64,000 nt of DNA, taken from the NCBI RefSeq assembly GCF_030406045.1, contig NZ_CP128988.1:2691001-2755000 (forward strand). The letters run 5' to 3'. The position numbers and the translations under genes are program-made. Shown piece after piece: positions 20,880 to 39,590 of the stretch (the first letter of the stretch is position 1; the number at the start of each line of letters is the position of its first letter). Under the pieces are notes generated by a model. That model ran no database searches, was not told the DNA's origin, and saw only the letters and a list, made by a program, of their open reading frames with translations. The stretch is from Thiohalobacter sp. IOR34 (GTDB taxonomy: Bacteria; Pseudomonadota; Gammaproteobacteria; Thiohalobacterales; Thiohalobacteraceae).

Positions 20880-22886
20880 TTATCCCAAAATTGTTATCCG
20901 GGTGACCAGCTCACTGGTACCCTGGATCTCCCCTGACCAGCGTACGCAGGGCGCTGGCACCTTCACGTCGAAGCTGCGGGAAATCCAGCCCAGGGGGGGA
21001 TCAATCCGCCCCATCACCACTTCCGGCTGCCAACCTACATGCGGCATAGCCATTTGTAGCACCACGTCACTGTTTCGTACCGTGACTAAAAACTCTTTAA
21101 CTTCCAGCTGACATTCCTCGGAGAAATGCCAGTGAATCTCAACAGTGTGGCGCTTGCGACAAACGAGCCGATCCGTAATTTCAATTAGAGCATTCAGCTT
21201 ATCATGGCTGATTGTGCGCTGATGCATCACTGGGTCTGATAGCCGCTGGTAGCCATCATGTTCCGCACTCCAGATATCCTGCTCCGACCCGCGCCTGAAC
21301 TCCAGGCACCGTGCCCGAGCATGCCGCAACCAAAGAAAATTACCCCCCGACACCGATTGATCCAGACCATCAACCCGGACCGTATTGTGGGCTGCGGTAC
21401 CACGGAAGTAGTCGCGCCAGACTTTCTGCGTGTGATATGCGTAAGTCCCTGGATCTACTAATATTTCCCGGCCCGCCACTGATAATGTGCAGGCCAGCGC
21501 ATCAGCGTGGCCATGCGCGGCTATGGACAGATACCCCATCGGGCCGGAATCCGCCACCAGGCGAACCTCGCGTTGGGTGTCGAGTTGGCTTCCGAAAATA
21601 TAGTATCCCCCCTCTGGGAATGCACGCCGGAATCCCATTTCCCGCACCGGCCCGGCCAGCGCATGGAATGCCTCCTCGCCCTCTCTGCCCAGCAACCAAC
21701 GGCTCTTGTCATCAAAATCGCCCGCTTTGGCCTTGAAATCCGCACGTTTGAACAGAACCGCCCCGGTCGCAAGCAATGATCGATAGACATGCACGTCTCT
21801 TGGTGCGAACCGCACCATGACCGCATCGTCGGAATCGCCGATCATCGGTACCCGCCCCGCAACATCCATCACCGAAGCGATGAATTCCAGCATCGCCTCC
21901 AAACGTTCCCAATAGGACGGGGAAAAATTTATGCCGTTTGCCTTTCCGACCAAGCCACAGATGAGCATCATATCTGCCACCTCATGGTGATACCAGATGC
22001 CCTGTTCACGATTCACCCCGTCCCGCGCATTCTGCTTAAGGGCCTCTTGCTCAAAACCCTGTTTTGACAACTTCTGCCATGCCGCAGATTTTTGCCATAA
22101 GGGCCAAGTCACGCTAGCCACGAACAACCCCATGTATTCGCCCAACAGATGATTGTTGGCCGAGGAGTAGCGAGAAAAATGGCTGGCGATAAAGGCGCAA
22201 TGCCTGTAGATCGACTCCAGCCACTGATGTCGAAATTCCTCTCCTTCTTTCCCGGCAAACACGGCCGAGTGCTCACCGCCCAGCAGATGCCATGCTACCG
22301 ACCAGTTCACCAGCCTCACCGCATGCTCCAGGGAACTGGTCCAATTGGGTCCAAGCGGGTAGGGACATTGCTTAAACCAGGATAGCAGCAGCGTCCGGAC
22401 ACCCTCCGCATAACGGAGATCCCCGGAAAGATGGAAGGCCTGACCCAGTGCTACCAGCTCCAGATGCCTGTTCGGCTCCCACAGGTACTTGATGTCACCA
22501 ACAAGGCTTTCATCACGATAATTAAGCGTCTTGCCGAACCGCAACGGAGCCACCGTGCCCGTGCGCGGATCACGATTCCAATTCGGTGGAAAACCCAGCT
22601 CCACGTTATTCATGGAAAATATATCGTAACGGCCCTGCAGCACGCGGTCTGCTTTTTGCACATAAACAACGGGACTTACAGGTGCATCACATGCAAACCA
22701 GGCGCGCCCTGGCACTCCCCTTGGAGCACATATCTCGTTCAATCGCGTTCCGCGCCACCTTTCCACTTGAGCGTGGATCACTTGCCCGGTACGCCACGCA
22801 ATCTCTCGCGTGCTCATCGCACGCAACCGTCTCACTCTCCATATAAGAGACGACAAAGCCACTTTACAACCCACCCTCAATCGCAC
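20880..22886 (-). CDS. Heparinase II/III family protein (polysaccharide lyase-like)
   Basis: A 668-residue protein. An N-terminal alpha/alpha-toroid (about 90-380) holds ANNHLLGEYMGLFVAS and WYHHEVADMMLICG. It is followed by the heparinase II/III beta-sandwich with YLSIAAHGHADALACTLSVAGRE and ILVDPGTYAYH. Such lyases cleave uronate-containing glycans by beta-elimination; related proteins are frequent in EPS loci and may trim or modify the nascent chain. I see no clear signal peptide. The start is GTG at 22884-22886; an internal ATG at 22817 is a possible alternative. The gene follows the first IS copy. Confidence 0.88.
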   Translation of the reverse strand: MRLRVGCKVALSSLIWRVRRLRAMSTREIAWRTGQVIHAQVERWRGTRLNEICAPRGVPGRAWFACDAPVSPVVYVQKADRVLQGRYDIFSMNNVELGFPPNWNRDPRTGTVAPLRFGKTLNYRDESLVGDIKYLWEPNRHLELVALGQAFHLSGDLRYAEGVRTLLLSWFKQCPYPLGPNWTSSLEHAVRLVNWSVAWHLLGGEHSAVFAGKEGEEFRHQWLESIYRHCAFIASHFSRYSSANNHLLGEYMGLFVASVTWPLWQKSAAWQKLSKQGFEQEALKQNARDGVNREQGIWYHHEVADMMLICGLVGKANGINFSPSYWERLEAMLEFIASVMDVAGRVPMIGDSDDAVMVRFAPRDVHVYRSLLATGAVLFKRADFKAKAGDFDDKSRWLLGREGEEAFHALAGPVREMGFRRAFPEGGYYIFGSQLDTQREVRLVADSGPMGYLSIAAHGHADALACTLSVAGREILVDPGTYAYHTQKVWRDYFRGTAAHNTVRVDGLDQSVSGGNFLWLRHARARCLEFRRGSEQDIWSAEHDGYQRLSDPVMHQRTISHDKLNALIEITDRLVCRKRHTVEIHWHFSEECQLEVKEFLVTVRNSDVVLQMAMPHVGWQPEVVMGRIDPPLGWISRSFDVKVPAPCVRWSGEIQGTSELVTRITILG

Positions 22887-22978
22887 CGGTCACGAAAAGC
22901 GCTGCCTCCATCTGTACGCCAGCATTCACAACAAAAAGGTTATCCCCCACATCACCCGAAACGCCATTTCCATCCTAG

Positions 22979-24165
22979 GGAACGTCTGATCAATTGACGT
23001 TTTGATCGGTGATTTCGTGATTCAGCCGTTCATCGGTTCACAAAAAGGACGAAATACCCAGAATGTCGCCGTGTTGCGATCTCTGGACCACCGTTTTCGT
23101 GCGCCTGACCCGAATTCAGGCGCATTGACCCTACGCTACCGCCAACAATCGTCGTCGGACCATGTACAGATTCGCCAGACCACATGCAACAAACAGCCGA
23201 TTGGCGTTCTTGTAAAGCCCCCGGTACCGAATCTTGTCGAATCCGAAGATCCGCTTGATGATCAAGAAGGGATGCTCCCCCCGCGCCCGCACCTTCGATT
23301 TGGTCCGGTTCTTCGCGCGTTCCTCTTCCGACAGAGGCCGGTTCCTGGCGCCCTTGCGCTGCGTGAAATCCGCCGCCCGGGGCGCATGTTTGCGGATCAC
23401 ATCGGTTTGCCCACTGTAGGCAGAGTCACCCCAGACCCGGGTTTCCTCACCGTGCAGCAGGTCCGGCAGCACCTGGCTGTCATGGACGTTGGCCGCAGTG
23501 GCAGCCACCGAGTGGATCAGCCGGGTCTTGCTGTCCACCCCCACGTGGGCCTTCATGCCAAAGTACCACTGGTTGCCCTTCTTCGTCTGGTGCATCTCGG
23601 GGTCGCGCTTCTTCTCACGGTTCTTCGTCGAGCTAGGCGCATTGATGATCGTGGCATCGACGATGGTGCCCCGGCTGACCTTCAGGCCGTTCTCCTCAAG
23701 ATACTGACCGATCAGGACAAACAGCCGCTCACCCAGGTTGTGGGCCTCCAGCAGGTGCCGGAAGTGGAGGATCGTCGTCTCATCCGGGGCCGGCCCCTCG
23801 CCCAGGTCGATACCCGCAAACCGGCGCATGGCCCGCGAGTCGTACAGCGCTTCCTCCATCGCAGGGTCGGAGAGATTGAACCAGTGCTGGAGAAAATGGA
23901 TGCGCAGCATGCGCTCAAGCCCCACCGGCCGGCGGCCTGGCTGGCCGGGGGCAGGCTTCGGATAGAACGGTTCAATCACCTCGCAGAGTTCTTTCCAGGG
24001 AATGATTCGGTCCATCTCCTCGAGGAAGATCTCTCGGCGGGTGGGCTTGCGGTAGCGTTCAAATCCCTCATCGGCAAAGCTCTGTTGGCGCATCCTCTGG
24101 AACTCCAGGCAGCTTGATCGAACAAGACGTATTATGCCTTATATGGCCGATTGATCAGAGGTTCC
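22979..24165 (-). mobile_element. IS5-family insertion sequence, copy 1 (1187 bp)
   Basis: Bounded by imperfect terminal inverted repeats (GGAACGTCTGATCAATTG at the left, GGAACCTCTGATCAATCG read inward from the right) and flanked by the 4-base target duplication CTAG (22975-22978 and 24166-24169). A 4-base CTAR target is typical of IS5-group elements. It carries one transposase gene. The right CTAG copy contains the TAG stop of the glycosyltransferase at 24166, so the insertion landed exactly at that stop codon and left the product intact. It differs from copy 2 by at least two substitutions. Confidence 0.95.
23131..24093 (-). CDS. IS5-family transposase, copy 1
   Basis: A 320-residue DDE transposase. 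It starts with an N-terminal DUF772-type domain (PVGLERMLRIHFLQHWFNLSD). The catalytic core has IVDATIINAP (first Asp), VWGDSAYSGQTD (second Asp) and RGEHPFLIIKRIFG (Glu in the Y(2)R(3)E-like block). It appears full length and uninterrupted, so it is potentially active. It differs from copy 2 at one residue, Val instead of Met in HDSQVLPD. The start is ATG at 24091-24093. A 371-residue antisense frame is a shadow. Confidence 0.93.
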   Translation of the reverse strand: MRQQSFADEGFERYRKPTRREIFLEEMDRIIPWKELCEVIEPFYPKPAPGQPGRRPVGLERMLRIHFLQHWFNLSDPAMEEALYDSRAMRRFAGIDLGEGPAPDETTILHFRHLLEAHNLGERLFVLIGQYLEENGLKVSRGTIVDATIINAPSSTKNREKKRDPEMHQTKKGNQWYFGMKAHVGVDSKTRLIHSVAATAANVHDSQVLPDLLHGEETRVWGDSAYSGQTDVIRKHAPRAADFTQRKGARNRPLSEEERAKNRTKSKVRARGEHPFLIIKRIFGFDKIRYRGLYKNANRLFVACGLANLYMVRRRLLAVA

Positions 24166-24858
24166 CTAGGATAGGCACGCAACTTCATCGTAGGCACGCA
24201 TAAGCATTTCCGCAACGACAGGCGCCAAAAACCTGCCTGTCGCAAATTCATTGTTGAACTTGCAGATTCTTTCCATTCCCGACGGATTCAGGAGCAGCCT
24301 CCTGACGGCGCTCACAATACTCTCGACGCTGTTATCTCTAACCAAATACCCCATGCTTCCTTCTTCAAAAAAATCCGCGACTCCACCCACCGGGCTCGTC
24401 ACAACCGCCATACCAAAAACCATCGCTTCAAGAACCGACGTTGGCATCCCCTCGCCATACGACGTAGGAAACACATAAACATGATGCGTTTCCAATATCT
24501 CCCGCTTTCTTGCCCCCCTGACATCCCCCACAACCGATAAGTACCTGCCTTCCGGATCATGCCGCCCCGCAAACTCGCGAACCTCCGGCATACAGCTCCC
24601 TTCTCCCGCAACAGTTAATGTCAGGGGCCATCCCTCTTCCCTCAGTTTGACAACCGCCTGCATGGCCTCCAGCGGCCCCTTCTCCCTGACCAATCGCGCC
24701 AGAAACAACGCCTTTATTTCACCGCCTTCCTTGATACATGCCAACTTATCTTGAATGGAGAACCCGGAAACAAGATCGGACGCGACTGTGGTTCGCGCAA
24801 CTTGTGTTCTTCCGCCGAGCCCCCAGTCTTCCAATTTTCCCTTAAAGGAATTCGCTAA
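24166..24858 (-). pseudogene. C-terminal part of a family 4 glycosyltransferase split by IS copy 2
   Basis: This holds the GT-B nucleotide-sugar half: IKALFLARLVREKGPLEAM, YVFPTSYGEGMPTSVLEAM and GVADFFEEGSMGYLV. The 5' part lies at 26046-26472, beyond IS copy 2. Removing that IS and one CTAA duplication joins the halves in frame as SRIFVL-ANSFKGK, giving a 371-residue enzyme with no other lesion. The stop TAG is formed by the CTAG target duplication of IS copy 1. As it stands the gene is disrupted and the fragment has no credible start. Confidence 0.9.
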
Positions 24859-26045
24859 GGAACCTCTGATCAATCGGCCATATAAGGCATAATACGTCTT
24901 GTTCGATCAAGCTGCCTGGAGTTCCAGAGGATGCGCCAACAGAGCTTTGCCGATGAGGGATTTGAACGCTACCGCAAGCCCACCCGCCGAGAGATCTTCC
25001 TCGAGGAGATGGACCGAATCATTCCCTGGAAAGAACTCTGCGAGGTGATTGAACCGTTCTATCCGAAGCCTGCCCCCGGCCAGCCAGGCCGCCGGCCGGT
25101 GGGGCTTGAGCGCATGCTGCGCATCCATTTTCTCCAGCACTGGTTCAATCTCTCCGACCCTGCGATGGAGGAAGCGCTGTACGACTCGCGGGCCATGCGC
25201 CGGTTTGCGGGTATCGACCTGGGCGAGGGGCCGGCCCCGGATGAGACGACGATCCTCCACTTCCGGCACCTGCTGGAGGCCCACAACCTGGGTGAGCGGC
25301 TGTTTGTCCTGATCGGTCAGTATCTTGAGGAGAACGGCCTGAAGGTCAGCCGGGGCACCATCGTCGATGCCACGATCATCAATGCGCCTAGCTCGACGAA
25401 GAACCGTGAGAAGAAGCGCGACCCCGAGATGCACCAGACGAAGAAGGGCAACCAGTGGTACTTTGGCATGAAGGCCCACGTGGGGGTGGACAGCAAGACC
25501 CGGCTGATCCACTCGGTGGCTGCCACTGCGGCCAACGTTCATGACAGCCAGATGCTGCCGGACCTGCTGCACGGTGAGGAAACCCGGGTCTGGGGTGACT
25601 CTGCCTACAGTGGGCAAACCGATGTGATCCGCAAACATGCGCCCCGGGCGGCGGATTTCACGCAGCGCAAGGGCGCCAGGAACCGGCCTCTGTCGGAAGA
25701 GGAACGCGCGAAGAACCGGACCAAATCGAAGGTGCGGGCGCGGGGGGAGCATCCCTTCTTGATCATCAAGCGGATCTTCGGATTCGACAAGATTCGGTAC
25801 CGGGGGCTTTACAAGAACGCCAATCGGCTGTTTGTTGCATGTGGTCTGGCGAATCTGTACATGGTCCGACGACGATTGTTGGCGGTAGCGTAGGGTCAAT
25901 GCGCCTGAATTCGGGTCAGGCGCACGAAAACGGTGGTCCAGAGATCGCAACACGGCGACATTCTGGGTATTTCGTCCTTTTTGTGAACCGATGAACGGCT
26001 GAATCACGAAATCACCGATCAAAACGTCAATTGATCAGACGTTCC
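24859..26045 (+). mobile_element. IS5-family insertion sequence, copy 2 (1187 bp, inverted relative to copy 1)
   Basis: Same length and ends as copy 1, in opposite orientation, with target duplication CTAA (24855-24858 and 26046-26049). It interrupts a glycosyltransferase gene. Different target duplications show that the two copies inserted independently; they are not the two ends of one composite transposon that moved as a unit. The two 1187-bp inverted copies bracket 693 bases and could promote inversion of that segment by homologous recombination. Confidence 0.95.
24931..25893 (+). CDS. IS5-family transposase, copy 2
   Basis: A 320-residue transposase identical to the protein at 23131-24093 except for one residue (Met in HDSQMLPD). 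Domains and catalytic motifs are as in copy 1. The open frame is complete from ATG at 24931 to TAG, so the element may still be mobile. Near-identity of the copies implies recent transposition. Confidence 0.93.
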   Translation: MRQQSFADEGFERYRKPTRREIFLEEMDRIIPWKELCEVIEPFYPKPAPGQPGRRPVGLERMLRIHFLQHWFNLSDPAMEEALYDSRAMRRFAGIDLGEGPAPDETTILHFRHLLEAHNLGERLFVLIGQYLEENGLKVSRGTIVDATIINAPSSTKNREKKRDPEMHQTKKGNQWYFGMKAHVGVDSKTRLIHSVAATAANVHDSQMLPDLLHGEETRVWGDSAYSGQTDVIRKHAPRAADFTQRKGARNRPLSEEERAKNRTKSKVRARGEHPFLIIKRIFGFDKIRYRGLYKNANRLFVACGLANLYMVRRRLLAVA

Positions 26046-26472
26046 CTAAAACGAATATCCGGCTTGCACTGCCATATATACCGCGAAAAAGCCATGCCCA
26101 CTTTTCCGATATGGCATCCGCCAAGCCGGAATTCCATCCATGAAAAAATACTAATACCGGCACTCCTCGGCGTTTGGCCGCCAACAGAAACAAGCCATCG
26201 CGCACTATGCTCTTAAACCCAAGAGAGGGGTTTATATGCACAATGTCTGGGTTGACCCTCCCAAGCATTCTGCGAAAACGCAACTGGTCCACCAACGGGT
26301 GCGCACCACGAAGGAATGCATTGGTACTACCGATTTCCAGATATTCCACATCATGGAGCTTGTCCGCATGAAAGTGGGGCAGCAACGCGTTGAAAAATCC
26401 CGCAACCCCCCCCGGATCTTGTAGTGACGGACCGGTCACCAGTACCTTCGCCCGTTTTGTTGATACGGCCAT
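26046..26472 (-). pseudogene. N-terminal part of the IS-interrupted family 4 glycosyltransferase
   Basis: Encodes about 142 residues beginning MAVSTKRAKVLVTGPSLQ and containing DPGGVAGFFNALLPHF and VPVLVFFHGWNSGLADAI, an acceptor-side GT-B half. The ATG at 26470-26472 follows GAAGGCAGGT and lies 28 bases after the stop of the sulfotransferase at 26501. The frame runs into IS copy 2 at 26045 and ends a few codons later. See 24166-24858 for the other half and the in-frame reconstruction. Confidence 0.9.
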
Positions 26473-26500
26473 ACCTGCCTTCACTCCCGAATGCTCCAGC

Positions 26501-27502
26501 CTAGGGGGCGCCCACGAACAACCGCTTATGGCGAAGATGCATGAGAATCCCGCGAAGCAGCCCATGCTCTCTCGCCACGGCCTTGGCCAAACTCAGCCCG
26601 TCCTGAAGGTGCCATAGCCTCCTTTGCAGCCCACTGACCTCACGAGCTTGTGACGCATATATCGGCTGGTAACCATAAAGTTTCATCCCCTCGAACCCAA
26701 ATTCCTCGATTTTCTTTATTTCGATTTTCCTCAGCGCACGCAGATATTTATTCTTGTTCCCCTGAATGATGCCAACAGCGCCTCGTGCATCCCCGAGATT
26801 TTCACTCGGCGCATCTAACGACCCCATCTCGCTCACGAAATCAATACCGAGAAAATCGCATATTCTTCCTAACTGTCCCGGAGGGTCTTCCAATAGCGAC
26901 TCATAATAAACCTCCATGTATCGATCATTTACTTGCTGCCCTGCTCTTCTGGCCTTAGCAACCCCTCGTCTCCACCGGTACGCCGCGCGGTACTTGTTCT
27001 TACCCCACGCCTTGTTAATGGACAGACAGTAATCCCTCACATCCCTCACTATATGGACGAATCTAGCAGTCGGATACTGAGCAGCGATGACCTCGATGTA
27101 CTCTATATATGACGGGCTTTTATCACCCCAAATAATATTCCCGCCTTGCGGGTTCTTCGTGACCGCCCGCACAAGTGCCTCGAACACTCCGGCTGGAGAA
27201 TACTCTTTTATATAGGAGCGCCATTCATCCTCCGCCAACGCCTCCCCCCTTTTCCGAAGATACTCGAAGAAAAAATGGCGCGCCATCCGAACATAGAATT
27301 CATGAAAGCCCGCCTCTTGCTCTAGACCGGAAAATCCATGCCAGTTCTTCACAAGGTACGGAAAAATCATCGTCTCGACATCCGGAATCGCGATCCTTGG
27401 ATGTCTGTTCAGCAAGTCCCTAAGCAGCTTGGTACCGGATCTCGGCATGCCAACGATAAATAATGGCCCGCCAAAACCCTCTGATGACAAACCCTCCCTC
27501 AT
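26501..27502 (-). CDS. PAPS-dependent sulfotransferase (1 of 4)
   Basis: A 333-residue member of the sulfotransferase family. The 5'-phosphosulfate loop is FIVGMPRSGTKLLRDLLNRH (about residues 15-34), and the 3'-phosphate motif is ARFVHIVRDVRDYCLSINKA. It would transfer sulfate from PAPS to a hydroxyl, here probably a sugar of the polysaccharide. There is no signal peptide, so it acts in the cytosol before export. Its ATG overlaps the stop of the glycosyltransferase at 27499 (ATGA), which indicates translational coupling. Confidence 0.88.
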   Translation of the reverse strand: MREGLSSEGFGGPLFIVGMPRSGTKLLRDLLNRHPRIAIPDVETMIFPYLVKNWHGFSGLEQEAGFHEFYVRMARHFFFEYLRKRGEALAEDEWRSYIKEYSPAGVFEALVRAVTKNPQGGNIIWGDKSPSYIEYIEVIAAQYPTARFVHIVRDVRDYCLSINKAWGKNKYRAAYRWRRGVAKARRAGQQVNDRYMEVYYESLLEDPPGQLGRICDFLGIDFVSEMGSLDAPSENLGDARGAVGIIQGNKNKYLRALRKIEIKKIEEFGFEGMKLYGYQPIYASQAREVSGLQRRLWHLQDGLSLAKAVAREHGLLRGILMHLRHKRLFVGAP

Positions 27503-28728
27503 TGCCGAACCTCGCCGATTCTAGAACTTATGAACCGCGCCAACGGCCCCGCATGGGATTCAAAATGGAAACATCTTTCCGCAACCTTCTGACCCGCCGC
27601 CCCAATCTCCGCCGCCCTGTCTGAATCGTCCAGCACGAACTGCATACATGACGCAATGGATTCGACGGACTCCGGCTCTGCAATCAATGCCGAGTCCTGA
27701 TGTCTCAAGTATCTATCTACATCCCCTACCCGGGTAACGATCACCGGAGTTCCTGACGCCAGATATTCCCCCAGCTTGGTTGGAAAACCCAGCCCGGCAT
27801 AGACACTGCTCGTCCTGCAACACAGCAGGCCCACGGCATTTTGGTACGCCCACACGAGCTCCCTTCTGCTCAGCAAGCCCACGAATATCACACGCCCCCC
27901 CAAGCCCGCAGCCTTCATAGCTTCCAGAACCCGGCGCTGGTCACCGGCGCTGACATTTCCGGTAAATGCCAGATAAACATCATCCCTTTGACGACAGACC
28001 TTGATGAAGGCCTCCACAATATAGGCAACACCGTCTTTTTCCACAAATGATCCCGAATTAAGGAAAAACCGGATCCCTGACAACTGAGGCACCTCTTGGC
28101 TAACCGGAAACGAATAGAGTTTCACGTCCGTAAGAATCGGCAACATAAAAATCCGCTCGCCTTCCAGCCCCTTATTGCGGTAATACAAGGCTATTCCCTC
28201 CGAAATCGGTATAACCCCCTTCGCAATACGCGGTACCAGGAACTCCATCAACCGTTCGGAAAAATTCAAAAGGCGTCCTACGAGATGCCGCTTGGAACCA
28301 CCTGTCGCCTTGGACCTCACCTCACATGCTTCAACAAATACGGGAATACCGAGAATCCGCGCAACCAACAACGGCACGCCATGCTTCAGGAAACTGGGGG
28401 TATACAGAAGAAGATAGTCGATTTCCCTATCGGCATTCATAGCCATCAACACCCTAGCCGCCCCGACAATTCCACGCCACGTATCCATAAAGGCGGGCAC
28501 AAGCCCCGAAGGACGAACGGTGTTGCCGCTGAGATATACGAAGTCGACACCATCAACATTCCCCGACACCGCCGCATTTTCTTCCACCGGCTTCTTCAGG
28601 GTGGGCTGAAGAAGCGCAACATTCACCGGCGCCCCCCCGATATCCAGCGCCCTGGCAATCAGGCGCAGCCGTGTTGCAGTGGCGTTTCCTTCCGGAAAGT
28701 CGCCGATCGCAAGCAAGAGGCCCTTCAT
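27499..28728 (-). CDS. Glycosyltransferase, family 4
   Basis: About 409 residues with a GT-B layout. MKGLLLAIGDFPEGNATATR begins the acceptor half, with LLYTPSFLKHGVPLLVARIL and VFVEACEVRSKA. The donor half has FFLNSGSFVEKDGVAYIV, RVIFVGLLSRRELVWAYQNA and LGFPTKLGEYLASGTPVIVT. The start is ATG at 28728 with AAGAGA upstream; a TTG at 28734 would add two residues. It is coupled to the sulfotransferase downstream and lies 16 bases after the next gene. The donor sugar is unknown. Confidence 0.85.
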   Translation of the reverse strand: MKGLLLAIGDFPEGNATATRLRLIARALDIGGAPVNVALLQPTLKKPVEENAAVSGNVDGVDFVYLSGNTVRPSGLVPAFMDTWRGIVGAARVLMAMNADREIDYLLLYTPSFLKHGVPLLVARILGIPVFVEACEVRSKATGGSKRHLVGRLLNFSERLMEFLVPRIAKGVIPISEGIALYYRNKGLEGERIFMLPILTDVKLYSFPVSQEVPQLSGIRFFLNSGSFVEKDGVAYIVEAFIKVCRQRDDVYLAFTGNVSAGDQRRVLEAMKAAGLGGRVIFVGLLSRRELVWAYQNAVGLLCCRTSSVYAGLGFPTKLGEYLASGTPVIVTRVGDVDRYLRHQDSALIAEPESVESIASCMQFVLDDSDRAAEIGAAGQKVAERCFHFESHAGPLARFISSRIGEVRQ

Positions 28729-28744
28729 TTGCAATCTCTTATCA

Positions 28745-29659
28745 TTACGAAAGCCGGTAACCGCGCCGGTCTCTCAGCAGGGAATAAGCGAGTCTCATTG
28801 CGTCGCCAGGAACGTCTCGCCATGATCCGGCAACTTCCCCTAATTCACGTAACAGCTCGCTTCTCTGGTAGCCCATGACACCGAGACGGTAGTCGCCGAC
28901 CCATTCGAGGTAGCGTCGACACCACATCCTCCTCAGCGGCGATGCCAACGTCGTTCGCCATTTTTCCAGAGGCTCCTGCGCCATCCTTGTATAATTCTTC
29001 ACGCCGCTCTTGTCGCCCATGCGCCCACCAAGGCGAATTTCCGAAAAGGACTCCACCAGTCCCGGCTCGAAATCCAACCCCAAATACTCGAAGATACCTT
29101 CAAGAACGCTATCCGGATCGCGGAGCAGATTTTCATATTGAACGACATGGATCCTCTCACCATATCGCTCTTGCACACGCACGAGATTTGCCAGCCCGTC
29201 GAACAGATCGATCCTGTAATTAGAAAGCCGCCAGACACCTCCGTAGCTGTGAATCCTGGACCCAAGCGTCGCCAGCGGATTCCTCCAAAGAAGAAGGAAC
29301 TTGGCATCCGGGAACCCCTCAACGATATGATGCGCGACAAGGTGGTAACGAGGCGTCTTATCCAGGAAGTACCGGGTGTCGTGGCCGGTCAGCTCACTAT
29401 ACAGCTTCTCCGCAAAGGCGCGGACGGCCGCATGGTAACTGTCCATTCCCCTCGGAAGCACGCCACAGAGATCTGCGATAGCATTCTCCAATGTTTGCTG
29501 CGAATAACGTGCTTGGCATAAGCCGTTCTCGAATGGCACATACAATGGCAACAATACCCACGGCTCCGACGTTGTGGCGATCTGCGAATGCCCGGACAGC
29601 ACCCTCTGGAGCAGAGTCGAACCCGAACGTGGCAGGGAGAACAGGAAAAGAGGGATCAT
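28745..29659 (-). CDS. PAPS-dependent sulfotransferase (2 of 4)
   Basis: A 304-residue protein starting with the 5'-phosphosulfate loop FLFSLPRSGSTLLQRVLSGH (residues 5-24). The 3'-phosphate region follows at AKFLLLWRNPLATLGSRIHS. The overall form is that of bacterial sulfotransferases of polysaccharide loci. No export signal is seen. The ATG overlaps the stop of the upstream polymerase gene as ATGA (29656-29659). It is only distantly similar by eye to the other three sulfotransferases, so each may modify a different position. Confidence 0.87.
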   Translation of the reverse strand: MIPLFLFSLPRSGSTLLQRVLSGHSQIATTSEPWVLLPLYVPFENGLCQARYSQQTLENAIADLCGVLPRGMDSYHAAVRAFAEKLYSELTGHDTRYFLDKTPRYHLVAHHIVEGFPDAKFLLLWRNPLATLGSRIHSYGGVWRLSNYRIDLFDGLANLVRVQERYGERIHVVQYENLLRDPDSVLEGIFEYLGLDFEPGLVESFSEIRLGGRMGDKSGVKNYTRMAQEPLEKWRTTLASPLRRMWCRRYLEWVGDYRLGVMGYQRSELLRELGEVAGSWRDVPGDAMRLAYSLLRDRRGYRLS

Positions 29660-30987
29660 GGCGCGCTGTCCTTCGGGCTGGCGGTGGAGCTGTTCATTCT
29701 GACCCAGTTAAAGCTGATCAAGGTTCCCAGCATCAACCACATCGTGCTGCTGATACCCCCATAAAATTCTACGGCAATAAAAAGGGCGACAATGGCGCCG
29801 ATAATCAGCGGCGGCTCTACCGGTAACAAAGGCGGAGCTGCCTGTTTGCTACCCCCTTTGAACGCAAGCCATATCAGACCGGCAACTCCAGCTACTGCGA
29901 GCGGCCCGCCTTGAAGAAGCAGTCTTAACCACATGTTATGGATATGTTCTATCAGCGGTTGCCATTTCCGATACGTCTCGTAACTGACACCAAGCGGCTC
30001 CACCGCCAGCAAGGCAAGTGCCTGAGAATATGATTCTAGCCTCTCGACGGCAGTATGCTCGGCTCGCTCACCGCCCATCTGGCTGATCCGCTCGACGATA
30101 TCGGACCCGAACGCCACCATAATTCCGGGGAGAACAACCATTCCAGCCAAAAACAGGCCAATAATGGCATTTCTTTGTTTACCCGTGGCGGTCTGCAGTC
30201 GCCGCCACCCCCAATACGCGCACAATGCCAGGATAGTACCAAACAACATATTACGGGACTGCGAGCCCGCCAGCCCGAGCAACAGCGCAAGCCAGACCCC
30301 CAGTTTTCCGACGCGGGACCCAAGAAACCCCAACGCCTCGCGGCCATGCGAGACCATCAACACGGCAACAAAGCCGTAAAGGATCGACAGGTCACCATAA
30401 CTGCTGAACAGCCCGATCGATTTCGGGAGCCACCCCTCGCCAATCCTGCTCTCCGCAAATCGTTCCACTGGCAGCCGTATCACCCCCAGCGCTACCAGGA
30501 ATGCCGACAAGCCGCCAATTACCGCCACGACAACGATCAGCTTTTTCATGATACGGAGTGTCCTCAGATCCCGTATATAGAGCGCCGGGGCAAAAAAGTA
30601 GAAGCTGTCCCGCACTATGTTCCATACCGCTTCGCGGGGAAATACCGGCGAGGCGGCAAATTTTGCAAGCACGGCGATACCGTACAGGGTGTACAAAGCC
30701 AACATGGCCCAAAGGATCTGGACGCGCCGAACGACGATCGCCTGGTCCCGTAGACGCGGCAGGAACACCGCGGAAAGACAGAGAAAAGGCGCGAGCAGAT
30801 TATCAATCGAGTAGGTCGCCACGACGGAATAGCGGTAAAAGGGCAGAGAAAGAACCCAAAGACAGAAAATTCCGAACAGCAAACCATGCCTCTGCGACCC
30901 GATATCATAAGCGGCACCAACCAGCGCCTCACTGGGACCAGAATCCGCCGTGACCCGCCTAGCCTGCCGTTGTCCCTTCAGCCACAC
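29656..30987 (-). CDS. O-antigen ligase/Wzy-like polysaccharide polymerase
   Basis: A 443-residue protein with about ten membrane segments. It has a large periplasmic loop before HNMWLRLLLQGGPLAVAGVAG, a block characteristic of the O-antigen ligase/polymerase (Wzy_C, WaaL) superfamily. SIGLFSSYGDLSILYGF and GLAGSQSRNMLFGTILAL resemble the conserved middle part. In this setting a Wzy-type polymerase of the EPS repeat is the likely role. The start is GTG at 30985-30987, three bases after the previous gene's stop, so an ATG further in cannot be excluded. Confidence 0.82.
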   Translation of the reverse strand: MWLKGQRQARRVTADSGPSEALVGAAYDIGSQRHGLLFGIFCLWVLSLPFYRYSVVATYSIDNLLAPFLCLSAVFLPRLRDQAIVVRRVQILWAMLALYTLYGIAVLAKFAASPVFPREAVWNIVRDSFYFFAPALYIRDLRTLRIMKKLIVVVAVIGGLSAFLVALGVIRLPVERFAESRIGEGWLPKSIGLFSSYGDLSILYGFVAVLMVSHGREALGFLGSRVGKLGVWLALLLGLAGSQSRNMLFGTILALCAYWGWRRLQTATGKQRNAIIGLFLAGMVVLPGIMVAFGSDIVERISQMGGERAEHTAVERLESYSQALALLAVEPLGVSYETYRKWQPLIEHIHNMWLRLLLQGGPLAVAGVAGLIWLAFKGGSKQAAPPLLPVEPPLIIGAIVALFIAVEFYGGISSTMWLMLGTLISFNWVRMNSSTASPKDSAP

Positions 30988-30990
30988 CGT

Positions 30991-31773
30991 TCAGCCCTCC
31001 CCTGTCCGCAACATCGTCCGATAGGGAGTACCAGTCAGAGCCGCCTCAATGTCTCCACAATTCTCTATCAGCTCGTCATGATTTGCCGGGTTGAGCTTCT
31101 CCATCCGGGAGGCAAGCGATCTTGGCGGACAGCCGAGAAATTCAAGACAATTCCCAAGACCACCCTCGTCGGCAGCGATATCCTCGTAAACAACGGAAAA
31201 GACCGGGACCCCGAGACGCCCTAGCACGATACCGAACAGGCGTTGGTCCCTCTCGCGCCGCCTCAATTGTTGTAGCAGCAACTTGGGGTCCACATGAAGT
31301 TTTACTCGCTGGAACTCTCCTCCTTGCTCGGCATGCGCCACTTTTCTCGCCTTCTTGGCCATGCTCGACAACACAATATCGAGCACATTCCTGCGAATCA
31401 GATGGATGATCCGAAGCCGGCGCCGGCGGATATACCACAGCGTTTCCGGCCACTGCACAATCTGGCTGTACATCAACTTCAACCCTATGGCCCGCTTTTC
31501 CGGGTGGGCAGCGAAGACCTCGTCAAGATAACGAAAAACCCCAACCGGCCGGATAAGACGCTCGATCCCGCGCAGACCCCTCCGGTAAGTCTGCCAATAT
31601 ACCTGATCCTTGTACTTGCCCCAGTCGGGCGTGCCTTCACCCTTGCGGAGAAACAGCTCCGTATAGCTTGCTATATCCGGATGACTGTTCAGCAAATCTG
31701 TCAGCCACGTGGACCCGCTGCGTTGCGTGGAAACCGTGACAAAGTGCGTTCTTGCCTCATTCAGCCGCGTCAT
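30991..31773 (-). CDS. PAPS-dependent sulfotransferase (3 of 4)
   Basis: A 260-residue protein starting MTRLNEARTHFVTVSTQRSG. TQRSGSTWLTDLLNSHPDIA is the 5'-phosphosulfate loop and RLRIIHLIRRNVLDIVLSSM the 3'-phosphate part, resembling Stf0/LPS-sulfotransferase-like proteins. The ATG at 31771-31773 follows GGGGGGAG and overlaps the end of the flippase gene by 17 bases. A longer frame upstream is a shadow inside that gene. It is predicted to sulfate the glycan in the cytosol. Confidence 0.85.
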   Translation of the reverse strand: MTRLNEARTHFVTVSTQRSGSTWLTDLLNSHPDIASYTELFLRKGEGTPDWGKYKDQVYWQTYRRGLRGIERLIRPVGVFRYLDEVFAAHPEKRAIGLKLMYSQIVQWPETLWYIRRRRLRIIHLIRRNVLDIVLSSMAKKARKVAHAEQGGEFQRVKLHVDPKLLLQQLRRRERDQRLFGIVLGRLGVPVFSVVYEDIAADEGGLGNCLEFLGCPPRSLASRMEKLNPANHDELIENCGDIEAALTGTPYRTMLRTGEG

Positions 31774-33964
31774 TCTCCCCCCCCGCCTTGCGTGCGGCGC
31801 CGTCGAGCCAGCGCATGAATCCTTGCCCGGAAAGGATACGGCAAATAAGGCGGGCAAACGCCTGAGGCTCAAGACGATTGCCACCCCGTTTGCCCTTGTA
31901 ATATTCCTTACGCAAGGTGCCGGTATCCGGATCCAAGAGCGCCTCATCCAGATCCACGAGATAGGCATCATGGTCCGCCGCCCAGCGGCGCAGAGCGGCG
32001 TTAAATTCGAGGGACAGCCGGGTTCGTTCCCACTGGGAGGCACTGAGCCCCGGCCTTTGCACGTCCATCGCAGCCGCGTCGCTGTCGCGCACAGACGGGA
32101 GCGGTATGGTGACCAGGGCCACGCGATGCCCCCGAGCCTGGCATAATTCCATAAACTCGAAGTAACGCAGCAAGGATTCTTCGATAACCTCCCGGGCGGT
32201 CACTCCCGCCTGCTCCGCCTTTTTCCAGGCCCTATATCCCACATCGACCTCGCCCAGCAGGAAGAGCAACGGCCTGTGCCGAGGCATCCGGGACAGCCAC
32301 TCCCCGAAAATCCTCGCAGCGCCGGTACGCGAATTGAGGTTGGCCAGCCCGTAGGCCGTGGCCCCTTGCACCACCGTGGCCCGGAAATAGACACCCGGCA
32401 TGCAGCCGGTGCGGTTGACGACCGGGAATATGTTGCAGTGGGAATCCCCCATGCATTCGACGACCCGCACCCGCAGCAAGGCGCAGGCCAAGTCTTCAAG
32501 CGGTCGCAGCAGCCGCTCCAGGCGGTAGAACAGTGGCACCCGGTGCGCGCGCCGCACCAGTTCGCCGCGCAGCCAGAACCAAGAATCCCGGATGTAGCCC
32601 ACGCCGGCAAAGGTGGTAATGCCGAGCACACGCCGGGCAAACAGCGCCATGAGGAGGTTCTGCAGCGCCAGGCCGGAGGCGTAGCCCAGGGCCACGCCCG
32701 CCGCGCCATGGGTCTGAACCAGCGCCAGGCTCATCACCACGCCGACGAGCCCGCCGCCCACGGCGGCACGCATCAACAGCCCCTGCTGATCGCACATCGC
32801 CAGCACATTGCCCGGCGATCCGGTGAGCACATTGACGGCTTGCCCGGCCGCCATGATGACCAGCACCCAGGCGCCGGCGGCGAAATACTCCCCATAGAGG
32901 ATGCGCAGCACCTCGCCACTGAACAGGATCACGAGGGACAGCAGCGCCAGCGCGGGCACCGCGGCCAGGGTCGCAGTCGAACGCAACATGCGTTCAAGCT
33001 CCCCCCTTTTTCCCTGGGCATGCAGCTCGGCGATCATGGGCGGGATGACGTGGTTTACCAGGCTGATCGGCAGGGCCACGAGCTGCATCAGCCGGTACGC
33101 CGCCCCATAGATCGCCACCTGGTCGGCCCCGGCCAGCGCGCCCAGCAGCCAAAGATGCGTCTCGCCGAGGGCGAGAATGGAAAAGCTGGACACAAACAGG
33201 GGCGCGCTCAAACGCAGCACCGGACCGAGCGCCAGGCCGCGCGCCGGCGCCAGCCTGGACCAGTGGTCGCGCCACAGCAGCCAGCCGCCGGTCAGGAGGG
33301 TCAGGCCGAAAGCGGCCAAGCCGATCCCCAAGGCTGTCTGCAGGCTGACCTGTCCAACGGCCAGCCACAGCCCTCCCAGCAGCAGGGCCGTGAAAAACTG
33401 GGTCTGCGCCCCCTCGTACACCGCGGCCCGTGCAAAATCGTGAAATCCGCGAAACGCCTTGGACAGCAGCATCTGGCCTTCACGCGCGACTATCCACAAC
33501 GCGGTCAGGCCCGCGAACGCCGCCACTTGCCCGGAACCAAAGACATGCTCGGCCAGCAGCGAGCCGCCCCCCAACACATAACCGCCGGACACCACCAGTG
33601 CCCCAAGCGCAGCGATCACCAGAATCCCGCGCAGCGACCGCCTGACCCCGGCCTCGTCTCCGATGGCCATGCCCGCGGCGACCAGCCGCACGATTGAGTG
33701 ATGGGTGCCGAACTGCGCGAGCGTCGAGCCAAGCAGCGCAATACTTGCAAGGATGAAATAGGTGGCCATGTCCTCCGGAGCAAGCATGCGGGCGAGCAGC
33801 GCCGTTACCAGCATCCCGCACAATGCCTGGATGCCGCGCCCGAACACCATCCAGAGTCCGCCGGAAAGCAGGCGTGAACCGACCGAGCGGCGGCGCGCCG
33901 CGCGCCCTGTCGTCACCGCCGACAGGCTTTCAACATTGGGGCTGTCGCTGCTCGTCCCGGTCAT
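31757..33964 (-). CDS. Oligosaccharide flippase (Wzx-like) fused to an SGNH/GDSL-like domain
   Basis: 735 residues. Positions about 30-455 form a 12-14-segment MATE/Wzx-type flippase (FGRGIQALCGMLVTALLARM, PEDMATYFILASIALLGS, NVLTGSPGNVLAMCDQQG), expected to move lipid-linked repeats across the inner membrane. After a basic linker (about 455-500) comes a soluble domain of about 230 residues. It has SGNH-like blocks: VVECMGDSHCNIFP (Ser block, GDSH), RPLLFLLGEVDVGYRAW and a C-terminal stretch near GNRLEPQAFARL, where the usual catalytic Asp-x-x-His is not obvious. The domain could add or remove acyl groups. I do not know this fusion as a standard architecture. Confidence 0.82.
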   Translation of the reverse strand: MTGTSSDSPNVESLSAVTTGRAARRRSVGSRLLSGGLWMVFGRGIQALCGMLVTALLARMLAPEDMATYFILASIALLGSTLAQFGTHHSIVRLVAAGMAIGDEAGVRRSLRGILVIAALGALVVSGGYVLGGGSLLAEHVFGSGQVAAFAGLTALWIVAREGQMLLSKAFRGFHDFARAAVYEGAQTQFFTALLLGGLWLAVGQVSLQTALGIGLAAFGLTLLTGGWLLWRDHWSRLAPARGLALGPVLRLSAPLFVSSFSILALGETHLWLLGALAGADQVAIYGAAYRLMQLVALPISLVNHVIPPMIAELHAQGKRGELERMLRSTATLAAVPALALLSLVILFSGEVLRILYGEYFAAGAWVLVIMAAGQAVNVLTGSPGNVLAMCDQQGLLMRAAVGGGLVGVVMSLALVQTHGAAGVALGYASGLALQNLLMALFARRVLGITTFAGVGYIRDSWFWLRGELVRRAHRVPLFYRLERLLRPLEDLACALLRVRVVECMGDSHCNIFPVVNRTGCMPGVYFRATVVQGATAYGLANLNSRTGAARIFGEWLSRMPRHRPLLFLLGEVDVGYRAWKKAEQAGVTAREVIEESLLRYFEFMELCQARGHRVALVTIPLPSVRDSDAAAMDVQRPGLSASQWERTRLSLEFNAALRRWAADHDAYLVDLDEALLDPDTGTLRKEYYKGKRGGNRLEPQAFARLICRILSGQGFMRWLDGAARKAGGENDAAE

Positions 33965-35524: not shown

Positions 35525-36379
35525 CTATGCGTCATACCAGTACCCAAGATCCCTGCCAAACTTTTGTTCCAGGAATTCACGATCCTTCTCGTAGTAACGC
35601 ACCAGCGCCTGCCTGACCACAGCCGGCATATTAGAGGCTGGAGCAAAGTTCACCGGCTTACTACCCTGCTTGCTCTCGGGCAACAACTCTGAATCAACCC
35701 CAAGAAATTCGCATACGCGACGCAGCTCCTTGTCACCGTCAACCTGAATGTCGTCAAAAAACATATAGTGAATACGCTCGACGGGGACAACACTTTCCCA
35801 CGCCTCGATATTGCGGCGGTAGTCGCCGCGAATAAGAATGCCTTCGTCGTGCGTCAAGCCAACCAGATAGTCAAGACCAGTATCGCCGGCCTTGGCGCCA
35901 TAGCCATACCACGTTCTGCGCCGCATCACCGACCAAGCTCGTTCTATGGGATTTCTGAGAATGTATATAATCTTCACACCAGGAAGATAGGCAGCCATCT
36001 CCTTTATACGGTCAATAGGCAGAATCGAATATGCCGGCGTAACATCCCCCTTCACACAACCGTGCCCTGCCTTAAAACACAGGGAATACCAACGCCGATG
36101 CAGCGGCGAATCCAGCCTGTATCGGTATCCACCTCTCGCATCTTCGACGTCGAAGTAATGCAATTCTTTTTCATGAGGTAGGTAAATCTGAGGATGGCGA
36201 GCCAGCCGATTATGAAGCCAGGTGGACGCCGCGCGCGGCGCCCCGATCCCCAAAAAATCGGGCTTTATATCACCCACCCATGGCATGAGCCACGCACGAA
36301 AGAGCCGCGATGTTCGCCTGTAAGCCTTAACCCACTGGCGGATCCTAATTTCAGTTTGCGGGAAACGTTCGAGCCGCAT
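35525..36379 (-). CDS. PAPS-dependent sulfotransferase (4 of 4), heparan-sulfotransferase-like
   Basis: A 284-residue protein. PDFLGIGAPRAASTWLHNRL is the 5'-phosphosulfate loop, and KIIYILRNPIERAWSVMRRR is the classic 3'-phosphate motif of heparan sulfate-type sulfotransferases. YLPHEKELHYFD and KGDVTPAYSIL also match that group. The ATG at 36379 follows GAGG nine bases upstream; a TTG at 36388 is an unlikely alternative. It lies just downstream of the PAPS synthase gene on the same strand (34 bases), which links sulfate activation directly to its use. Confidence 0.9.
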   Translation of the reverse strand: MRLERFPQTEIRIRQWVKAYRRTSRLFRAWLMPWVGDIKPDFLGIGAPRAASTWLHNRLARHPQIYLPHEKELHYFDVEDARGGYRYRLDSPLHRRWYSLCFKAGHGCVKGDVTPAYSILPIDRIKEMAAYLPGVKIIYILRNPIERAWSVMRRRTWYGYGAKAGDTGLDYLVGLTHDEGILIRGDYRRNIEAWESVVPVERIHYMFFDDIQVDGDKELRRVCEFLGVDSELLPESKQGSKPVNFAPASNMPAVVRQALVRYYEKDREFLEQKFGRDLGYWYDA

Positions 36380-36413
36380 TAGTAACAACCTCGTTGTCCA
36401 TGAAATACCTTAA

Positions 36414-38141
36414 CTAGCTGACGGAGTCCAAGTAGCCTTCACGCAACAAATAGAGGTAGATCTCCTGCGCGGCCTCCATTGGGTTCATACCGGTGGTGTC
36501 TACGCGTAGTTCGGGGTTCTCGGGTTCTTCGTAAGGATCACTGATACCGGTGAATTCCGGGATCAAACCCTGACGCGCTTTTGCATAAAGACCCTTGCGA
36601 TCGCGCGCTTCACAGGTTTCCAGTGGCGTGGCGACGTGGATCTCGATAAAGCTGCCGTGCTGCTCGATCATGTCGCGCACTGCGCGGCGCATCTCGGCGT
36701 AGGGGGCGATGGGCGCGCAGATGGCGATGCCGCCGTTCTTGGTGATTTCGCTGGCGACGAAGCCGATGCGGCGCACGTTGAGATTGCGGTGCTCCCTGGA
36801 GAAACCCAGCTCGCTGGACAGGTGCAGGCGCACGATGTCGCCGTCCAGCAGGGTGACAGGGCGGCCGCCGGCCTCGATCAGCTTGGAGTAGATGATTTTG
36901 GCCAGGGTCGACTTGCCCGCCCCGGACAGGCCGGTGAAGAACAGGGTCAGGCCCTGGCGGCTGCGCGGCGGGCAGACCTTGCGCAGCTCGCGGACGACCT
37001 CCGGATAGGTGAACCACTCGGGGATCTCCTCGCCCTTCTGCAGCCGGGCCTTGAGTTCCGTTTCGCTCAGGTCGACGCCCTCCTCGCCTTCCCGCCGCAG
37101 TTCCGAGACGGGCAGGTAACGGCCACGCTTGGCGGAGTATTTCATCTCCTCGACCGGGACCATCTCGATATCCAGATCGGCGGCCTTGTCGGCGACCAGT
37201 TCCTGGGCGGCGTACTTGGCATAGAAGCCCTCGCCGTCGCCGCCGTTTATGGGGGGCGAAGCGTGGTCCGGGCCGACGATGAAGTGCGAGCAGCCGAAGT
37301 TCTGGTGGACGATGCCGTGCCACAGCGCCTCGCGCGGGCCGGCCATGCGCATGGCCAGCGGCAGCAGGGAGAGCAGCGCCAGGTTGTGCGGGAAGTGGCG
37401 GCGGATCGCCTGGTAGCAGTGCACCCGGGCGTAGTAGTGCAGGTCGCCCGGCTTGGTCATGCCCACCGTGGGGTGCAGCAGGATGTGGCCGCCGATCTCC
37501 TTGGCCGCCTGGAGGGTCATGTCGCGCTGCAGGCGGTGCATGGGTTTGCTGGTCTGCAGCGCGACCACCCGGCGCCAGCCCATCTTGCGAAACAGGTGGC
37601 GCAGCTCCTCCGGGGTGTCCCACAGGCTCTCGAAGTCGTAGTGCACGGGCGCCTGGATGCCCTCGATGGAACCGCTTATATAGGTATCGCCGACCTGCTC
37701 GTAGAGGTAGCGCACGCCCGGATGGGCCTCGGAGGTCGTGCCATAGATGCGTTCGGCCTCATGGCGCTTGTCCGGCTGCCAGATATCCTCGACGGTGAGC
37801 ACCGCCGGCATGAAACCCTCGCCGTCACGCAGCGCGATTTTCTGGCCTTTTTCCAGTTTTTCGGCAAATTTCGATGCCACATCGAGGACGATCGGCACAG
37901 GCCACAGCGTCCCATCCGGCAGCCGCATGCCCTCCAGCACGGCCTCGTAGCCGGCCTGATCCATGAACCCGGTCAGCGGCGAGAGGCCGCCGTTCATCAG
38001 CAGCTCCAGGTCACAGACCTGGCGCTGACTGAGGGTCAGGGAGGGAAAATCCTTGGATGCGTTCTTGAGCCGCTCGGCCTCGTCGGCAGCGACCCGCAGA
38101 TCCACCAGCTTGCCGCCGTGCGGCGGTACGAAAAACTCCAT
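36414..38141 (-). CDS. Bifunctional sulfate adenylyltransferase/APS kinase with altered sulfurylase motifs
   Basis: 575 residues. The N-terminal 395 form an ATP-sulfurylase fold (NGGLSPLTGFMD, LLHPTVGMTKPGDLHYYARV) and the rest an APS kinase (FFTGLSGAGKSTLAK, LLDGDIVRLHLSSELGF, RDRKGLYAKARQG). Together they would make PAPS, the donor for the four sulfotransferases. The sulfurylase motifs deviate: QTSKPMHRLQ (196-205) instead of QxRNPxHxxH, and GPDHAS (290-295) instead of GRDHAG, replacing two Arg and one His normally essential. The kinase half looks intact. I recall that a Thiobacillus denitrificans fusion of this kind showed APS kinase but little sulfurylase activity; that should be verified. 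The ATG at 38141 gives the normal N-terminus. Confidence 0.92.
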   Translation of the reverse strand: MEFFVPPHGGKLVDLRVAADEAERLKNASKDFPSLTLSQRQVCDLELLMNGGLSPLTGFMDQAGYEAVLEGMRLPDGTLWPVPIVLDVASKFAEKLEKGQKIALRDGEGFMPAVLTVEDIWQPDKRHEAERIYGTTSEAHPGVRYLYEQVGDTYISGSIEGIQAPVHYDFESLWDTPEELRHLFRKMGWRRVVALQTSKPMHRLQRDMTLQAAKEIGGHILLHPTVGMTKPGDLHYYARVHCYQAIRRHFPHNLALLSLLPLAMRMAGPREALWHGIVHQNFGCSHFIVGPDHASPPINGGDGEGFYAKYAAQELVADKAADLDIEMVPVEEMKYSAKRGRYLPVSELRREGEEGVDLSETELKARLQKGEEIPEWFTYPEVVRELRKVCPPRSRQGLTLFFTGLSGAGKSTLAKIIYSKLIEAGGRPVTLLDGDIVRLHLSSELGFSREHRNLNVRRIGFVASEITKNGGIAICAPIAPYAEMRRAVRDMIEQHGSFIEIHVATPLETCEARDRKGLYAKARQGLIPEFTGISDPYEEPENPELRVDTTGMNPMEAAQEIYLYLLREGYLDSVS

Positions 38142-38659: not shown

Positions 38660-38992
38660 CTAGGAACCCAGCTCGACCAGATCTTCCCCCTTTTGCAAGA
38701 GGTCGATGATCACCTCGAAATAGCGGTCCATGTGGGCGAGCAGTTCCCGGTTGGTCGTGTTCCCCAGGCGAACCCATACGACTGGCGGCCCATCTTTCCC
38801 CATCGATTTAAGGGTCACGAAATCGTCATCCTTGGTCACCAGGACGGCATTGATGTGCACGGCATGATCCCAGATCTCCCGGTCCGGGGCCGATCCCATG
38901 CCGATATCGTGAACATGCTCCGCCTCGTGACCACATGAGGCGATGTAACGTGCGAGTCCAGGTGGTAGTTGCGCGTCAATGAGGAAGCGCAC
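38660..38992 (-). CDS. DUF5615 PIN-like protein (probable toxin)
   Basis: A 110-residue protein starting (GTG) MRFLIDAQLPPGLARYI, with GHEAEHVHDIGMGSAPDREI, AVLVTKDDDFVTLKSM and PPVVWVRLGNTTNREL. These are the conserved acidic blocks of DUF5615, a PIN-like nuclease family usually paired with DUF433. The predicted role is the RNase toxin of a toxin-antitoxin pair. The start lies two bases after the DUF433 stop. The stop lies 14 bases from a REP hairpin. Activity is inferred from the family. Confidence 0.88.
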   Translation of the reverse strand: MRFLIDAQLPPGLARYIASCGHEAEHVHDIGMGSAPDREIWDHAVHINAVLVTKDDDFVTLKSMGKDGPPVVWVRLGNTTNRELLAHMDRYFEVIIDLLQKGEDLVELGS

Positions 38993-38994
38993 GC

Positions 38995-39219
38995 TCAGGC
39001 CACGCGCACCACAGGATGGTCGGTCTGGCGGGCCGCAAACTCCAGCGCGGCGGTGATGTCGTCCGCTTCGAGGTAGGGGTAATCCTGCAGGATTTCCTCG
39101 CGTGAGACACCACCCGCCAGCATATCCAGGATGTCGGACACCCGGATACGCAATCCGCGAATGCAGGGTCGACCACCACAGATTTCTGGATCGATGGTGA
39201 TTCGATCAAGATGGCTCAT
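38995..39219 (-). CDS. DUF433 protein (probable antitoxin)
   Basis: A 74-residue protein: MSHLDRITIDPEICGGRPC, then IRGLRIRVSDILDMLAGGVS and EEILQDYPYLEADDITAALE, the complete DUF433 domain with its helix-turn-helix. It precedes the DUF5615 toxin by two bases, in the usual antitoxin-first order, and probably represses its own promoter. The ATG at 39217-39219 gives full family length; an open frame extending to 39474 runs through REPs and is not used. Confidence 0.9.
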   Translation of the reverse strand: MSHLDRITIDPEICGGRPCIRGLRIRVSDILDMLAGGVSREEILQDYPYLEADDITAALEFAARQTDHPVVRVA

Positions 39220-39590
39220 CGGACGCCCCCTCCGTTCATCGTTTTGAATGGTAGCATATCCCGATGATGCCGGAACTTGACCAATCCGTAGTGAGAGCGT
39301 CCACCGTAACAGCATTCGGGGCAAGGGCGGTAAGCGGTGCGTGCCGTAGGGTCCATAACCCGATCGCGGCCGGGAGGCCGCTCCTACAGGAGGCGTGGCG
39401 GCACCGTTGGGCGCAGGAGCGGTCTCCAGGCCGCGATCAGGAACCCCACCCCCATCGCGGCGTGGACGCCGCACCTACAGGGGGCCGCGATAGAATCACC
39501 ACCCAATCGCGGCATGGCGGCACCATTGGGCGTAGGAGCGGTCTCCAGGCCGCGATCATGGCGGACCGCGAAGGTGCGCAGCCGCTGAGG
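39220..39590. repeat. Gene-free interval with REP cluster and a copy of the 38516 segment
   Basis: REP units lie from 39363 to 39558 with alternating orientation. 39310-39362 (GCATTCGGGGCAAGGGCGGT and following) is a near-copy of 38516-38569, so the toxin-antitoxin pair is flanked by direct repeats of a composite that extends into a REP. 39220-39309 should hold the DUF433 promoter; I see no clear boxes. Confidence 0.85.

Follow-up and report, generated by a model that had tools for sequence, protein, structure and literature searches.

A Wzx-type flippase joined in frame to a probably inactive SGNH-fold domain in a sulfotransferase-rich polysaccharide cluster of Thiohalobacter sp. IOR34

The window analyzed here is a 64,000-nucleotide stretch of the Thiohalobacter sp. 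IOR34 genome, and its focal gene (positions 31757-33964, minus strand) is an open frame that starts with ATG and runs without an internal stop, encoding a flippase/SGNH-like fusion protein of 735 residues (P0001). The surrounding cluster contains four sulfotransferases, an ATP sulfurylase/APS kinase, a GDP-mannose dehydratase, the exosortase EpsH, and glycosyltransferases. The sulfotransferases, all assigned by Pfam, are encoded on the minus strand at 26501-27502, 28745-29659, 30991-31773, and 35525-36388, the third of them sharing 17 bases with the end of the fusion gene. On the same strand lie the genes for a GT4-type glycosyltransferase (Pfam; 27499-28734), for the ATP sulfurylase/APS kinase of sulfate activation (36414-38141), and for EpsH with DUF3485 (15897-17504), which marks an exosortase-type exopolysaccharide cluster; a link of EpsH with exopolysaccharide is given in an earlier study (PMC1569441). 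From its gene content, the cluster is likely to make a sulfated exopolysaccharide by a Wzx/Wzy-type route. Pfam confirmed no Wzy in the cluster, and a membrane protein without a Pfam match (29656-30987, minus strand) may be Wzy polymerase-like, judging from position and look only. The synechan cluster is comparable; its authors state that they knew of no other bacterial gene cluster for extracellular polysaccharide in which sulfotransferase genes had been found (PMC8205485).

The locus also carries insertion elements. Two inverted 1194-base elements with a DDE transposase (22976-24169 and 24855-26048) were reported as 100% complementary, yet their transposases differ at one residue. The second element interrupts a GT4 glycosyltransferase gene, whose two parts lie at 26035-26565 and 24166-24873. 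The locus may therefore be in decay, which has to be treated as a serious rival explanation. A heparinase II/III-like protein is encoded within the same exosortase-type, sulfotransferase-bearing cluster (20880-22886, minus strand), and a toxin-antitoxin-like pair of DUF5615 (PIN-like) and DUF433 genes lies at its edge (38660-38992 and 38995-39474, minus strand).

The fusion frame has a single match, at 100%, in the one-contig assembly of the source genome. GC at third codon positions stands at 0.83 for the flippase part, 0.84 for the linker, and 0.74 for the tail; the linker value suggests that this segment is coding in the fusion frame, and one other frame is also open over residues 431-520. 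The original prediction of a Wzx-like membrane domain continuing in frame into a soluble SGNH-like domain is borne out by the open frame, the PF01943 match, and both predicted folds described below. It had also proposed that the fusion be sought in other genomes: searches with the tail or the flippase in sets of 95, 369, 340, and 398 genomes found no second fused copy. Unfused pairs of flippase and SGNH-like genes are present at 2 loci of the tail family described below (L095 and L098).

The Wzx-like MOP flippase domain occupies residues 26-455 (32600-33889, minus strand), the part covered by homologues, and is recognized by Pfam, homologue alignment, and fold model. PF01943 (Polysacc_synt) matches residues 33-315 (E 2.1e-13, 50.8 bits against a cut-off of 28.2), and a flippase profile aligns with WzxE (PDB 9g95) at E 4.9e-10. 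A model of residues 1-480, derived from a six-row alignment, is of low confidence (pLDDT 66.9), and it is with this model that Foldseek retrieved MurJ, WzxE, and MATE structures at E 1e-7 to 1e-4. Helices 280-296 and 298-316 of the model are parted by one residue and helix 394-447 is long; counting the former 2 as one and the latter as two gives 12 helices. Hydropathy yields 13 membrane segments in the fusion protein, none of them extra after residue 455. From our count of 12, the usual MOP topology, which was used to place the tail, and the basic segment that follows the last helix, the C-terminal tail would lie in the cytoplasm; an odd number of helices would place it outside, and the 13 hydropathy segments leave the side unsettled. 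The window protein shares its Pfam family and fold with known Wzx flippases (WzxE, MurJ) and differs by its tail from those matched elsewhere: of the 369 genomes searched, 41 others have a match, with open frames of 184-542 amino acids, none of fusion length, and with matched parts that mostly stop near residue 450. In 10 stretches around the nearest unfused flippases, phmmer detected no SGNH gene, and the few matches of a loose motif scan there were judged to be chance.

The flippase is followed by a basic, helical linker without a hydropathy segment (residues 456-500; 32465-32599, minus strand; delimited by hydropathy, model, and codon-position GC) and then by an SGNH-fold domain (residues 501-735, the last of them at low confidence; 31760-32464, minus strand). 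Folded with 45 relatives, residues 460-735 gave a model with pLDDT 89.6 and pTM 0.86, for which Foldseek ranks a putative acylhydrolase first (4iyj, E 5.8e-8). Among the best 50 rows of VIA-align, Z falls from 16.8 to 14.3; a designed scaffold comes first, followed mostly by entries whose names mark them as GDSL/SGNH proteins, lipases, or esterases. The acylhydrolases among them include 4ppy_B (Z 16.6, rmsd 3.4 over 203 residues) and 4iyj_B (Z 16.4, rmsd 3.3 over 202). The predicted fold of the tail is thus SGNH, as had been guessed from the sequence when a structural comparison was proposed. On the tail alone, PF13472 (GDSL lipase, Lipase_GDSL_2) matches at E 2e-05 and 25.6 bits, under its cut-off of 32.9. 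In the Pfam search that identified the flippase, none of the four families with E up to 0.1 is the acyltransferase-3 domain (PF01757), and scans of the window copy with Pfam, NCBIfam, and PHROGs found no model of the tail family's own.

Relatives of the tail were hard to find. As a single query it gave nothing convincing in PDB, phages, genome contigs, or viral contigs, only its own genome among 95 genomes, and, among 369, five matches at E 0.002-0.01 that we judged to be chance; against plasmids nothing was convincing, with four matches at E 4 to 10 when E up to 10 was allowed. Relatives surfaced only when DNA was searched with a pattern encoding GEVD.G[FY]..W, prompted by the window sequence and by known proteins of this kind. 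Of 22 viral stretches that fit the pattern, 13 encode relatives and 9 do not; among 398 genomes it matched 2, the source genome and one other (G507), with 1 match for the reversed control. A profile scan then matched 114 stretches, 48 of them encoding relatives, from Pseudomonadota, Bacteroidota, Actinomycetota, Bacillota, Cyanobacteriota, and other groups. The shared domain of ~215 residues is thereby present at 48 loci in genomes and on 13 viral-collection contigs, the latter (L050, L052, L054, L055, L057-L059, L061-L064, L066, and L068) being of putative viral origin, two of them longer than 140 kb. Open frames at 38 of the 48 loci are shorter than 320 residues from stop to stop; the other 10 are longer, some merely because they are open upstream. 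The family is sparse, with 2 matches each, own genome included, among 340 and 398 genomes, and the second match of the 340 set is of a sister type with GEIDCR; the source genome has one family match only. Neither a family member searched against phages nor another searched against plasmids gave a match.

For alignment, 12 of the 48 genome loci (more than 75% identical) and one cut at a contig end (L084) were set aside, leaving 35; removal of copies (L062, L064, and L068) left 10 of the 13 viral-collection contigs, and together with L071 these make 46 rows. L071 equals L092 in sequence, so 45 rows are distinct, and a degenerate second copy on L052 was left out. The tail aligns with this set, with a best phmmer E of 5e-25 (in a small sequence set), and is therefore more than chance sequence. 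In literature that lay largely outside subscription journals we found no paper combining a flippase, SGNH, and a sulfotransferase, or SGNH, Wzt, and O-acetyl, and nothing relevant on flippase fusions; the SGNH-like family is apparently undescribed.

The window copy shows kinship with the family and carries its GDSH, GAT..G, and GEVD.G..W motifs, and it lacks the [DN]HH block. The GDSH and GEVD blocks that had been read from the sequence are present as block I (residues 506-509, with Ser508 kept; 32438-32449, minus strand) and block III (residues 571-574; 32243-32254, minus strand). All but one of the 46 aligned relatives have a complete GDSH, the exception having Ser for the first Gly, and GEVD is kept in all 46, with Val at the Val573 position throughout. 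Alignment with hhalign to E. coli TesA, at a probability of only 14-21%, pairs GDSH with GDSL and LGEVD with LGGND, so the block III Asn (GxND) appears to be missing family-wide; the conservation of block III is partly selected, since the GEVD motif served to collect the family, and His-His figured in no search pattern. Block II Gly539 is kept in 46/46 relatives, the TesA alignment being of low probability there. Ser508, His509, Gly539, Asp574, Arg637, and Arg647 are common to the window copy and the family.

Block V sets the window copy apart. The aligned relatives all keep His-His (46/46; 45 distinct), preceded by Asp in 40 and Asn in 6, and the domain ends in [DN]HH in 47/47 uncut genome loci, whereas residues 695-697 of the window protein (31874-31882, minus strand) read Gly-Asn-Arg, with N696 and R697 in place of the two histidines. 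At least 44 of the 46 relatives agree at 27 columns; the window copy matches 21 of these and differs at 6, against 0 or 1 differences for every other row scored against the rest. Its branch, at 2.5 changes per column, compares with a median of 0.71, and its tree placement is unsure. The window copy's PF13472 match ends at profile position 158 of 178; that of L052, weak at E 0.017, reaches position 173 and so crosses block V. Compared with SGNH/GDSL hydrolases (4iyj, 4ppy, 4hf7, the sialate O-acetylesterase 6njc, and TesA), the tail shares the fold, the Ser in GDS, and the block II Gly, but has the family's Val for the block III Asn and Asn-Arg for the block V His-His. We do not file it as an SGNH hydrolase, and the loss of the block V histidines suggests that the domain is probably catalytically dead. 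Some chemistry may remain, since Ser508, His509, and 21 of the 27 conserved positions are kept. The doubt raised earlier about the catalytic Asp/His block, and the suggestion that the tail might be a binding domain, thus gain ground from the Gly-Asn-Arg and the 6 of 27 altered positions. Conversely, the idea that the tail adds or removes acyl groups on the repeat unit as it crosses the membrane finds no support, given the same block V and the 12-helix count, which would put the tail in the cytoplasm, although the 13 hydropathy segments leave the side unsettled. Among viral-collection contigs, L052 (3043-4363) encodes two tandem SGNH-like genes, the second of which reads GDVH and has neither the Ser nor the HH; the window copy is accordingly not the sole member without HH.

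Genes beside the relatives point to a link of the family with glycan export. An exporter lies directly upstream on the same strand in 10 of the 35 nonredundant loci, 8 of them Wzt-like (L074, L078, L079, L083, L091, L105, L116, and L119) and 2 Wzx (L095 and L098), and in 25 loci the same test found none. An exporter stands in that place for 3 of 432 other genes of the same loci (Fisher p 3.7e-10, a value that is too small, because the loci partly share ancestry). Neighbor genes come from a simple gene caller, and the Wzt and sulfotransferase labels are motif matches, part of them checked by Pfam. Among the 25 of 151 Pfam families listed for 136 near neighbors (proteins cut to 420 residues) are ABC_tran (9), ABC2_membrane (8), Wzt_C (7), Sulfotransfer_2 (8), and Sulfotransfer_1 (8). 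In L095 the order is sulfotransferase, flippase, SGNH-like, and in L098 flippase, SGNH-like, sulfotransferase; in both, the flippase and SGNH-like genes are separate, 22 bases apart from stop to start, and a PF03567 sulfotransferase adjoins the pair. All three genes are also present in L088, more widely spaced and with an opposite-strand gene between them. In the window the fusion gene is followed by the overlapping sulfotransferase gene, and the window protein is best read as an exporter/SGNH-like pair that recurs side by side elsewhere and is here fused.

Several characterized proteins offer points of comparison. MviN of mycobacteria is a MurJ-type flippase. PMC12599244 describes MviN as a transmembrane protein without which peptidoglycan is not properly made, and its pseudokinase domain as recruiting a regulator; MviN pairs a pseudokinase with peptidoglycan, whereas the window protein has an SGNH fold and probably serves an exopolysaccharide. 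Wzt is an exporter with a C-terminal glycan-reading domain (PMC9445017); it differs from the window protein in fold and exporter class, and a Wzt-like gene is the direct upstream neighbor of the SGNH-like gene in the 8 loci named above. AT3-SGNH acyltransferases (OafA and OatA) are likewise membrane proteins with a C-terminal SGNH domain that work on surface polysaccharides, and that domain lies outside the cytoplasm (PMC9558356); in the window protein a flippase replaces the AT3 domain, no extra hydropathy segment follows residue 455, and the histidines are lost. The OSK domain of Oskar (5a4a) has an SGNH fold, with a VIA Z of 14.5 over 183 residues and an rmsd of 3.6 to the tail. It has been likened to an SGNH hydrolase without catalytic activity, and its co-elution with mRNA in vitro is reported (PMC12247748); Oskar is an animal protein with another ligand and without a flippase.

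The account that we tentatively prefer, at slightly less than even chances, is that of a Wzx-type flippase carrying a tail derived from the SGNH-like family, probably noncatalytic, that works as a cytoplasmic recognition or docking module. The tail would sit at the cytoplasmic face, where the repeat unit would be built and sulfated, and could let the flippase take up correctly modified units; alternatively, it might hold the sulfotransferase whose gene overlaps the fusion gene. Precedents for such roles would be the glycan-reading domain of Wzt (PMC9445017), the MviN pseudokinase (PMC12599244), and the inactive SGNH-like domain of Oskar (PMC12247748), and by analogy Wzt_C may play a comparable part in ABC exporters. 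A bolder form of the idea is doubtful: the SGNH-like family as a whole would work with glycan exporters (Wzt and Wzx) in the cytoplasm, and in the source genome its member would have become a built-in, catalytically dead checkpoint of the flippase, reading the sulfated unit and deciding whether it is flipped, and so serving Wzx as the carbohydrate-binding domain serves Wzt. A stop codon may instead have been lost between adjacent genes, leaving a tail that drifts without a role behind a working flippase, or a whole cluster that is dying. The long branch, the insertion in the cluster's glycosyltransferase, and the degenerate copy on L052 are in keeping with such decay, which we nonetheless hold to be unlikely: 735 codons are intact and their codon-position GC looks coding all along, the tail retains 21 of the 27 conserved positions, its model folds well (helped by the relatives' alignment), and the next gene overlaps by 17 bases.

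That the tail is still an enzyme, using Ser508 with another base such as the invariant His509 to add or remove an acyl group on the unit, seems less likely again. The 6 residues shared by window copy and family speak for it, and the chemistry may be unusual, the family leaving the SGNH plan at block III already; set against this are the loss of both histidines found in 46/46 aligned relatives, the six altered conserved positions, and the long branch. We give little credence to the reading that the SGNH-like domain serves the stability or assembly of the flippase without glycan contact. The probable loss of catalysis is compatible with that, and the pseudoenzyme domain within MviN is a precedent (PMC12599244), but the retained pocket motifs GDSH, GAT..G, and GEVD would not be needed for that alone. 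Our estimates for these explanations overlap slightly, a docking role being counted both here and in the preferred account. Least probable of all is a sequencing or assembly error in which a false indel joins separate flippase and SGNH-like genes: the separate genes of L095 and L098, 22 bases apart, and the second open frame over residues 431-520 leave some room for it, but the linker reads as coding in frame, the assembly is one contig, and a false join would leave the lost histidines unexplained. To our knowledge, substrate choice by Wzx flippases is an open question. A natural flippase with a separable domain, together with intact stand-alone relatives beside Wzx and Wzt, allows a direct test of whether such a domain sets specificity; the locus also points to a protein family near sulfotransferases for which scans of the window copy found no dedicated model in Pfam, NCBIfam, or PHROGs.

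Further architectures were seen around the family. Extensions of the proteins at L055, L117, and L073 look sulfotransferase- or pyruvyltransferase-like to the eye, and were set aside because Pfam finds nothing in them. At L121 (334-2115), a protein of the sister type carries GDSH and GEIDCR behind a long N-terminal part that is TPR-like by eye. In three genera (L078, L091, and L105), a Wzt-like gene is followed by the SGNH-like gene and then by a giant frame of ~1450-1840 residues.
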